Origin: Deltaproteobacteria bacterium
GTDB lineage: Bacteria > Desulfobacterota > GWC2-55-46 > DRQE01
Assembly: GCA_015492245.1 (NCBI GenBank)
Contig: WGFM01000035.1
Span: 1-43,120 of the forward strand
Direction of reading: 5' to 3'
DNA length: 43,120 nucleotides
Within the stretch, counting starts at the first letter, position 1. Each line of letters starts with the position of its first letter. Below are positions 29,569-34,939 of this stretch, in pieces. The position numbers and the translations under genes were made by a program. Below the pieces are notes generated by a model. The model saw only the letters and a list, made by a program, of their open reading frames with translations, did no database searches and was not told the origin of the DNA.

Positions 29569-31017
<1,449 letters not shown>

Positions 31018-31884
31018 TTATCCTTTAAGCGCCTCTGCTCCACTTATAATCTCCATAAGCTCTTTTGTGATGGCTGCCTGGCGGGCACGATTGAAGTCCA
31101 GGGTGAGCTTGTTTATCATCTCACCTGCGTTTCTTGTTGCGGCATCCATGGCGGTCATCCTTGCACCATGCTCGCTGGCAGCTGTCTCGAGAAGTGCCCT
31201 GAAGACCTGAAACTCCACATACTTTGGCAGAAGCTCTGCCAGAACCTCTTCTTCGGAGGGCTCAAAGAGTATGCCCTCTGCCTTCTGCTCCTCTTCCTCT
31301 TCCTTCTCTTCTGTGGCCAGGGGTAGAATACGCTCTATTACAGGGCGCTGGCTCAGGGCAGAGCGGAACTCACTATATATAATGTATACCTCGTCTGTGC
31401 GGTCTTCCTTGTAGTCCTTTATAAGGTCTTCTGCTATCTGGTGGGCAAAACTGTAGCTGGGCCGTGCGATACCGATGGAGCGCGTCTTTACTATGTTAAC
31501 ACCTCTTCTTTTGTAGTGCTCGAGGGCGCGCCTGCCCACAAGATAGTAGCCAACATCGAGCTCGGGGTTCTCCTCTACAAACCTTTCTGCCCTTCTTATG
31601 AGGTTGGTGTTGAACCCTCCGCACAGGCCCCTGTCGGAAACAAAGGTGGCAAGAAGCGCTCTGCCCTTTCCGGCCTTCGAGAGAAAATCATTACTCTCTG
31701 GCATCACCCTTGCGGAAAGGGAGTTCACAAGCCCCTTTATCTTCTCTGCATAGGGGCGTGCACTGAGTATGTCCTCCTGTGCCCTTCTCAGCTTGGCAGC
31801 TGCCACCATCTTCATGGCCTTGGTTATCTGCTGGGTGTTCTTTACACTCTTTATTCTTCTCTTTATGTCCCTTAGGGTTGCCAT
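31018..31884 (-). CDS. atpG: ATP synthase F1 gamma subunit
   Basis: This is the central rotor shaft. The 288-residue protein has the conserved N-terminal helix (ATLRDIKRRIKSVKNTQQITKAM) and the long C-terminal helix (GARMTAMDAATRNAGEMINKL). The region around 195-215 contains an acidic insert (EEKEEEEEQKAE) in the globular domain. AAGGAGG lies six bases before the ATG. Confidence 0.97.
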   Translation of the reverse strand: MATLRDIKRRIKSVKNTQQITKAMKMVAAAKLRRAQEDILSARPYAEKIKGLVNSLSARVMPESNDFLSKAGKGRALLATFVSDRGLCGGFNTNLIRRAERFVEENPELDVGYYLVGRRALEHYKRRGVNIVKTRSIGIARPSYSFAHQIAEDLIKDYKEDRTDEVYIIYSEFRSALSQRPVIERILPLATEEKEEEEEQKAEGILFEPSEEEVLAELLPKYVEFQVFRALLETAASEHGARMTAMDAATRNAGEMINKLTLDFNRARQAAITKELMEIISGAEALKG

Positions 31885-31921: not shown

Positions 31922-33430
31922 CTACTCTGCAACGAATGTCTCCTTGAGCTCATCGAGGGCCCTGTTCATCTTCTCCTTGAGATCCTGGGTGAGCTCCTTT
32001 TTGGTCCTTATCTCTTCGAGTATCTCAGGGTGTTTGCCCTCAAAGAACTGGTAGATTTCCTGCTCGTACTTTGCAAGGGCCGTTACCGGATAGTCATCCA
32101 CATAGCCGTTTGTTGCAGCGTATATGAGGAGCACCTGTTTTTCAACTGGAACAGGGCTGTATTGCTTCTGCTTGAGTATCTCGACGAGCCTGCTGCCCCT
32201 TGCAAGAAGCCTCTGGGTGGTGGGGTCGAGGTCGCTTCCGAACTGTGCGAAGGCTGCAAGCTCACGATACTGGGCGAGTTCAAGCCTCAAGGTGCCTGCA
32301 ACCTGCTTCATGGCCTTTATCTGTGCGCTACCGCCCACACGGGAGACCGAAAGACCCACATTTATGGCAGGTCTCACGCCTGAATAGAAGAGGTCGGACT
32401 CGAGGTATATCTGCCCGTCTGTAATGGATATGACATTTGTGGGTATGTATGCGGAGACATCACCTGCCTGTGTCTCGATAATCGGAAGGGCGGTGAGCGA
32501 ACCTCCACCGAGCTCGTCCTTGAGCTTTGCAGCCCTCTCGAGAAGCCTTGAATGGAGGAAGAACACATCCCCGGGGTATGCCTCTCTGCCAGGTGGGCGC
32601 CTCAGGAGAAGCGAGAGCTGCCTGTATGCAACGGCGTGTTTCGAGAGGTCGTCGTATATGACAAGGGCGTGCATGCCGTTGTCCCTGAAGTACTCACCTA
32701 TGGTGCAGCCCGTATAGGGTGCGAGGAACTGTAGGGGGGCAGGGGTGCTTGCCGTTGCAGAAACGACCACCGTGTAGTCGAGGGCTCCTGCCTCACGAAG
32801 CTTTTCAACAAGCAGTGCCACGGTGGACTGCTTCTGCCCCACCGCCACATATATGCAGAACACATCCTGACCCTTCTGGTTTATAATGGTATCGATACAT
32901 ATGGCGGTTTTACCTGTCTGGCGGTCTCCTATTATGAGCTCACGCTGTCCCCTTCCTATGGGTATCATGGCATCTATTGCCTTTATACCTGTCTGCAGGG
33001 GCTCTTTAACAGGCTTTCTGACCACTATTCCAGGGGCCTTTACCTCAACCCTTCTGGATTCCTTGGCACCTATGGGGCCCTTGTCGTCAAGGGGTCTGCC
33101 CAGCGGGTCTATGACTCTGCCCATGAGCTCTCTTCCCACAGGCACCTGAACTATCTTGCCTGTTCTACTTACCGTATCTCCTTCTTTCACATCGTGGTCA
33201 GAGCCGAATATTGCAACGCCCACATTGTCTTCTTCCAGGTTGAGCACCATGCCGTAGATGTTTCCTGGGAATTCCACAAGCTCTCCTGACATGGCACGCT
33301 CAAGCCCGTAGATTCGTGCTATACCATCGCCTATAGAGATAACCGTGCCTATCTCTGCAAGGTCTATTTCTTTCTCGTAACCCTTTATCTGTTTCTTAAT
33401 AAGCTCGCTTATCTCCTCTGCCTTAAACAT
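31922..33430 (-). CDS. atpA: ATP synthase F1 alpha subunit
   Basis: Non-catalytic nucleotide-binding partner of beta. The 502-residue protein has Walker [28 protein letters not shown], and the arginine finger in [11 protein letters not shown]- and C-termini are standard ([29 protein letters not shown]). It lies one base after the atpH stop. Confidence 0.98.
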
Positions 33431-33431
33431 A

Positions 33432-33980
33432 TCAGCTCACTCCTTCCAGTAATTTTTCTTTCATCCTTTCAAGCTGTGTCTTTATGCTACCATCGAATAT
33501 GGTATTGCCTATCTTTATGATCAATCCGCCTATAAGGCTGGGATTCTGGCGGGTTGAGAGAACAACCCTGTTGCCACTTTCCTTCTCTATCTTCTCTTTT
33601 ACGGCCCTCACCATCTCCTCTTCCACGCCCTTTGCCACCTCTACCGTTACGCGGATTCTGCCCGAAAGCCTGTCCTCCATCTGCGAGTACTGTTTCGAAA
33701 TCTCTTCAACAAGCCTTATGTGGCGTCTTTCGACAAGAAGCGATAGAAACTTTACCACCACAGCTGAAAGTGTCAATTCCTTTGCGAGCTCTTCCACTAT
33801 GGCCTTTCTCGTCTCTATTCTGTACATGGGGTTAAGGAGCACCTTGTAGAGTGCAGGGGCTGTGCCGAATACAGCCGCCACCTTTCTGAGTTCCTCTCCG
33901 TACTGTTCGTATCTATGCTCCTCTTTACCTATATCTATGAGTGCCTCTGCGTATCTCTTTGCAAGGGTGGTCTTGCGCAT
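33432..33980 (-). CDS. atpH: ATP synthase F1 delta subunit
   Basis: Delta (OSCP) joins the stator stalk to the top of F1. The 182-residue protein has the six-helix N-terminal domain ([14 protein letters not shown]) and the conserved C-terminal beta strand block ([28 protein letters not shown] in part). The ATG overlaps the upstream stator gene as TGATG, so delta and the b'-b product are made together. Confidence 0.95.
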
Positions 33981-34939
33981 CAGTTAAGCTTCAACCTCTC
34001 TATATATGTCTTTATTATTCTTTCCTGGTCCTCCCTTGTTATGTTCTCTTCCAGTATGCTTCGGGCCATCTCGACGGCGCCATCAACCACTTCTCTCTGC
34101 ACACGCATACGGGCCTTTCTTACCTCCTGCTCCACACTTCTTCTTGCCTGCTCCTTGAGGGTCTCCACCGTATGGTGTGCCTCTTTTATTATCCTGTCTC
34201 TTTCTGCCTCTGCCTCCTCTATTATGCGCCTTCTGACCTCTTCCATCTTCTTCTCAAAGCCTGCCATCTTCTCCTTGTATTCTTTCAGCTTCTCCTCTGC
34301 CTCTTCCTTTATCCTTCGAGCCTCTTCTATGGCGCCCCTTATCTTCTCCGCCCTTTCTTCAAGAAGCCCCTTTATCCACCTTGTCCATACATACCATCCA
34401 CCTATAGCAAGCAGTATAAAGTTGAGTATCTTCCAGCCCATACCACTTGAGCCCTCTTCACCCCCTCCACCTGCAAACACAACCCCTGGTGTAAGCATCA
34501 CAGGGAGCAGGAGTGCGAGCCTTCTGTCCAGTATCTTCTCTGCGATCGTTCTGGAAAGAGCGGGTATATTCTCCTTGAGGCTCTGGATTATGCCCTTTTC
34601 TGTTATCTCAAGTTCTTCTCTTGCCTTACAGAGTTCGGCCTGTGCCTCTATTCGGGCCTTTTCAACGATGGAATTGCTCTCTGCCACCGCCTTCTCCCTT
34701 ATGCGTGCCCTCTCTTCCTGTGCCTTTGCCACACCCTCTTTGAAGCGCCTGTCGTATTCTTCGAACCCCTGCCTTGCGCTCTCCTCGATATCTTCTGCCT
34801 CTTTGAGTGTTCCCTCGGTTCGCTCTTTTCTCTCATCGAGTGTATCCATGACGGGCCTGTAGAGCAGCCTGTTGAGCACATAGAGAAGCACAAAAAACAC
34901 CGCTATCTGGTATAGAAGTGATTGGTCTAAACTTATCAT
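33980..34939 (-). CDS. atpF: ATP synthase stator, fused b' and b subunits
   Basis: Normal b-type subunits have about 140-190 residues with one N-terminal span; this frame has 319. Residues 1-138 are a complete b' subunit (span at about 8-26, then an amphipathic coiled coil ending SRTIAEKILDRR). Residues 139-157 (LALLLPVMLTPGVVFA) look like the signal peptide that precedes b in related bacteria, followed by GGGGEEGSSG, a second membrane span (about 170-188) and a second coiled coil to 319. No stop or frameshift separates the halves, and no good internal ribosome-binding site is visible. The two coiled coils could pair within one chain, or signal peptidase could cut after VFA (about 34469) to release separate b' and b. 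First gene of the operon, with GGGGGT upstream of the ATG. The ring subunits a and c are not encoded here. Confidence 0.9.
   Translation of the reverse strand: MISLDQSLLYQIAVFFVLLYVLNRLLYRPVMDTLDERKERTEGTLKEAEDIEESARQGFEEYDRRFKEGVAKAQEERARIREKAVAESNSIVEKARIEAQAELCKAREELEITEKGIIQSLKENIPALSRTIAEKILDRRLALLLPVMLTPGVVFAGGGGEEGSSGMGWKILNFILLAIGGWYVWTRWIKGLLEERAEKIRGAIEEARRIKEEAEEKLKEYKEKMAGFEKKMEEVRRRIIEEAEAERDRIIKEAHHTVETLKEQARRSVEQEVRKARMRVQREVVDGAVEMARSILEENITREDQERIIKTYIERLKLN

Follow-up and report, generated by a model that had tools for sequence, protein, structure and literature searches.

The window analysed here (the whole stretch of DNA, 43,120 nucleotides) carries a single reading frame in which subunit b' of the ATP synthase is followed by subunit b, and this arrangement raises two questions: whether the frame is a real gene, and how the two arms of one stator could be obtained from one chain. 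Polyproteins are rare among bacterial complexes, and the arrangement also bears on how cells set the b':b ratio at 1:1. We report that the b'-b fusion is a real gene of single origin, present order-wide, and that its product is, judging from the sequence, most likely cleaved.

The fused gene and its neighbours

The frame starts with ATG, ends with TGA and has neither a stop codon nor a frameshift inside; the delta, alpha, gamma and beta subunit genes come immediately after it. The features of the region are as follows.

33980..34939, minus strand: fused b'-b ATP synthase gene, putative polyprotein (319 amino acids plus stop; open frame; two PF00430 stretches)
34520..34939, minus strand: b' subunit, residues 1-140 (aligns with separate b' and with chloroplast b', 6fkf_p; AF2 helix 6-135)
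34472..34519, minus strand: predicted internal signal peptide core and c-region, residues 141-156, LALLLPVMLTPGVVFA (column analysis of 43 relatives; rule scan with shuffles)
34469..34474, minus strand: predicted signal peptidase I cut between Ala156 and Gly157 (conservation at -1 and -3; -2 unconstrained)
Source fusion after the predicted cut, from the residue following AXA: GGGGEEGSSGMGWK
33983..34471, minus strand: predicted mature b subunit, residues 157-319 (aligns with mature separate b and with 6fkf_b; AF2 helices 182-318)
33432..33980, minus strand: delta (OSCP) subunit gene (PF00213, E 7e-45; start overlaps the fusion stop by one base)
31922..33430, minus strand: alpha subunit gene (PF00006/PF00306/PF02874)
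31018..31884, minus strand: gamma subunit gene (PF00231)
29569..30996, minus strand: beta subunit gene (PF00006 and PF02874)

The initial annotation had placed the fused gene at the correct positions, 33980-34939, but had left out its strand. The overlap between the fusion stop and the delta start reads TGATG on the minus strand (33978-33982), which suggests coupled translation of the two genes. The delta domain PF00213 is absent from the fused chain, delta having its own gene at 33432-33980. Searches of the source genome, which covered families of interest, found the fusion as the only b-type gene, and the F0 a subunit gene lies on a different contig. Beyond the window, two adjacent frames of 585 and 457 amino acids (G000:C20:23823-26026) are about 29-31% identical to the alpha subunit over part of their own length; they resemble V/A-type ATPase subunits A and B, and the source genome may have this second rotary ATPase besides the F-type one.

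Two complete subunits in one frame

Within the frame, a complete b' subunit comes first, then a signal-peptide-like segment, then a complete b subunit. PF00430 (ATP-synt_B) matches the chain with 119 bits in two stretches, one in each half, and in a profile search the family profile matched chloroplast b' (6fkf_p) at positions 2-137 and chloroplast b (6fkf_b) at positions 174-313. These matches bear out the initial annotation, which had described a 319-codon frame made of b', a segment followed by GGGGEEG, and b. The b' half aligns end to end with the separate b' of other orders, which has 142 amino acids. As read off the sequence, this half has an N-terminal membrane span (about residues 5-28) and then one long helix to about residue 135, and the b half has a short Gly-rich outer end, a membrane span (about residues 169-187) and a long helix. 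The AF2 monomer model contains a continuous b' helix of 130 residues (6-135), mostly of high confidence, and helices between residues 182 and 318 in the b half. Because the junction (137-178) is disordered in this model, with pLDDT < 50, and a Foldseek search of the model against the PDB gave only weak matches to unrelated coiled coils, the model does not tell how the two halves pack against each other. In short, the frame is a genuine fused gene that encodes both b' and b, the stator subunits of the F-type ATP synthase.

Distribution and origin of the fusion

Of the 48 genomes of the same order, 42 carry a stop-free fusion, with 43 copies that span seven families. The nearest relative, of the same genus, is 87% identical, the frame being kept open there and in 40 further genomes, and the fused copies diverge down to 36-38% identity within the order. 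That the frame might be an assembly or sequencing error joining two genes is next to impossible in the face of 43 copies in 42 genomes of seven families, including the single-contig assembly G016, and we reject it. The initial annotation had proposed that relatives be compared for a stop codon between the halves, and this comparison disposes of such an error. In a tree of the 43 fused copies and 10 sets of separate genes, all the fusions fall on one side of a 100/99 branch, and the fusion thus has one origin on the tree. The relatives named in a search of the genome collection with a seven-row alignment are uncultured Deltaproteobacteria, many of them from groundwater.

Six genomes of the order gave no match. 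In three of these (G033, G047 and G005) the alpha gene stands at a contig end, so that the b'-b gene lies off the contig; in the other three (G003, G008 and G046) no clear F-type alpha was found. G003 and G008, which belong to the same family and whose assemblies are more than 90% complete, have neither a clear F-type alpha nor a b gene, and it is possible that they have lost the F-type enzyme or that their assemblies have gaps. One genome, G013, holds two close fused copies (L021 on C12 and L043 on C113), which represent either a duplication or mixed strains in the assembly.

In the other orders of the class, every sampled genome with a match has two separate genes. A phylum-wide sample of 395 genomes contained 14 with a stop-free full-length match, all of them members of the order, and none was found in the 381 sampled genomes outside it; the relatives from outside the order whose sequences were translated (L066-L068, L071-L074 and L076) are not fused. 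A further 14 sampled genomes outside the order have b' and b in the same frame, parted by just one stop codon (G409, G072, G336, G112, G436, G347, G418, G332, G408, G219, G243, G383, G266 and G348) and are, by their sequences, one stop-loss away from a polyprotein. In G055 the TAA that ends b' is directly followed by the in-frame start ATG of b, which shows a possible route to the fusion.

The junction and its predicted cut site

Where b' and b are separate in other orders of the class, the b gene starts with a signal-peptide-like segment, just as the initial annotation had noted for several deep-branching Gram-negatives. The separate b' ends in ..AEKILERKVA, at the place where the hydrophobic core of the fusion begins, and the separate b has a long n-region, a hydrophobic core, FAA or a similar motif, and then EEGGH... 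In the fusion the end of b' runs straight into the core, and the stop, the start codon and the n-region of b have been lost. The hydrophobic segment in the middle of the frame had been given as residues 141-157; the segment itself stands, but it ends at residue 156, and GGGGEEG begins at 157.

Signal peptidase I substrates follow the -3/-1 rule. Of the 43 fused copies, 41 have Ala and two have Gly at position -1, position -6 is Pro in 38, and position -3 is small or aliphatic in all except one misaligned row, where a Glu appears because the row is shifted by two (the real site there reads ALA followed by S). Position -2 is free and holds F, L, S, R, K, E or N, even charged residues. The core is uncharged in all 43 copies, and a basic end is kept before it. 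These features together form the pattern of signal peptidase I substrates and not that of a plain membrane span. The mean pairwise identity of the -1 column is 0.91, versus 0.32 for the core and 0.34 for the mature start; it is 0.47 for the b' coil and 0.52 for the b coil, so that the segment, by its sequence, evolves fast, in the manner of signal peptides. With a simple self-made signal-peptide rule, a scan placed a site within the middle segment in 40 of the 43 copies (38 at the aligned column), compared with a mean of 7.9 when the segment residues were shuffled. The rule found no site in the b' spans of the 43 copies and also fired near the b span in six of them; AXA is still kept in the three copies that fail the scan, whose c-region is acidic or polar. 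The conservation of the site is in part a legacy of the separate b, from whose signal peptide it descends, but passive retention is unlikely, since the copies diverge within the order down to 36% identity.

The proposed cut and its alternatives

On this evidence, we consider it likely that the fusion is a polyprotein cut by signal peptidase I into b' and b at 1:1. This had been one of two readings in the initial annotation, and it is strongly favoured by the conserved signal peptidase I site, the lack of a conserved internal start and the descent from a b that bears a signal peptide. It might be supposed instead that b is translated separately from an internal codon, the long chain being a by-product, and in many members an in-frame ATG does occur a little ahead of the b span, 10-17 codons past the predicted cut. 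However, the 43 copies have no conserved in-frame start codon between the b' end and the b span: an ATG, GTG or TTG occurs upstream of the core in 20 of them, six of these with a Shine-Dalgarno sequence, and neither the position of the start nor the Shine-Dalgarno is conserved, while L014 and L020 have no ATG, GTG or TTG at all between the b' end and the b span. Moreover, separate translation would leave nothing to hold the frame open order-wide, whereas the linker stretch, which varies from 30 to 40 residues, changes in whole codons only. The lack of a conserved internal start and the whole-codon length changes mean that ribosomes have to translate b' first in order to reach b, and an internal start, for which we see very little chance, was rejected.

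The other reading in the initial annotation was an uncut stator of two strands, in which the middle segment would be a permanent return span and the chain would pass the membrane three times. The segment is hydrophobic and rightly placed to bring the chain back across the membrane, and such a chain would likewise fix a 1:1 stoichiometry. Geometry is against it: the end of the b' helix (to residue 135 in the AF2 model) lies about 107 residues x 1.5, or about 160 Å, from the membrane exit, but the 33 residues from there to the b span, even when stretched, cover no more than about 116 Å, including the segment that needs the membrane. By this arithmetic, the uncut chain could not form a normal parallel stalk. 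Nor does a permanent span need Ala at -1 with a free -2. Geometry and site conservation together disfavour the uncut stator, which we regard as unlikely. There is also barely any likelihood that a cytoplasmic or other protease, rather than signal peptidase I, makes the cut at the b' end; that end must be freed somehow, but the sharpest conserved column between the helices is the -1 position of signal peptidase. Another protease may, on the other hand, act as a second step after signal peptidase I.

A proposed route of processing

If the polyprotein is cut by signal peptidase I, the b' span would insert first, from outside to inside, and its coil would remain in the cytoplasm. The internal segment would then take the role of a signal peptide whose n-region is the basic end of b' (..ILDRR), and would send the short Gly-rich start of b outside. 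Cleavage after Ala156 would free mature b with its N-terminus outside, the same state as in relatives that make b as a precursor of its own with a signal peptide, and would give two chains in a fixed 1:1 ratio. A signal peptidase I gene (LepB; PF10502 at C2:102735-103322) is present in the source genome.

The end of the b' half aligns with that of chloroplast b', which in the chloroplast enzyme lies near the top of F1. A second step would be needed because b', once cut, would keep about 16 hydrophobic residues at the end that binds near the top of F1 in known enzymes. More speculatively, this signal-peptide remnant on the b' C-terminus would be removed by the candidate RseP, allowing b' to reach the top of F1. 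An RseP gene, with HELGH and two PDZ domains, is found in the source genome. Remnant signal peptides are cleared by RseP, most of whose substrates are oriented with the N-terminus inside (PMC10470546); it is a candidate because the remnant on b' would have the orientation of its usual substrates. A two-step processing of the stator polyprotein in the whole order, by signal peptidase I and then by intramembrane proteolysis with RseP, is put forward tentatively, as a possibility somewhat short of even. If it is true, secretion and membrane quality-control proteases would be obligatory assembly factors of the ATP synthase.

Genes welded together with a kept cut site in a whole order provide a natural test for selection on stator stoichiometry or on the order of assembly. 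It is predicted that blocking signal peptidase should stop ATP synthase assembly in bacteria of this order.

Comparison with known systems

The literature searched yielded no account of a b'-b fusion, which does not prove that none exists. The closest counterparts are the separate b' and b genes (atpX and atpF) in other orders of the class and phylum (titled Deltaproteobacteria), which encode the same subunits in the same order. The separate b starts with what looks like a cleavable signal peptide, its AXA preceding the same mature start as in the fusion, and the separate b' ends at the same residue as the b' half. They differ in that the separate genes have a stop and a new start, whereas the fusion has lost both and the end of b' would serve as the n-region.

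A stator fusion that has been described is that of delta and b in mycobacteria and Gordonia (PMC5709465). Like the b'-b gene, it is a fusion within the peripheral stalk of an F-type ATP synthase (PMC5709465; 7jg5_d). It joins b to delta, however, with the second b separate, and the b-delta chain is present in solved structures. To our knowledge, this fusion has no internal signal peptide. In the core-E1 precursor of HCV, signal peptidase cuts and an intramembrane protease then frees the first protein (PMC5402940). There the signal peptide of the second protein forms the end of the first, as proposed here for b'-b, but the system is viral and eukaryotic and is a mechanistic analogue only, with no common descent. 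In FbcH of Bradyrhizobium japonicum, cytochrome b and cytochrome c1 are made as one precursor, the second part of which is freed by signal peptidase at an internal signal sequence. As a polyprotein of a respiratory complex, FbcH is the nearest bacterial precedent for the way in which the b'-b fusion would work, although it belongs to the bc1 complex and joins two unlike subunits, not two arms of one stator.
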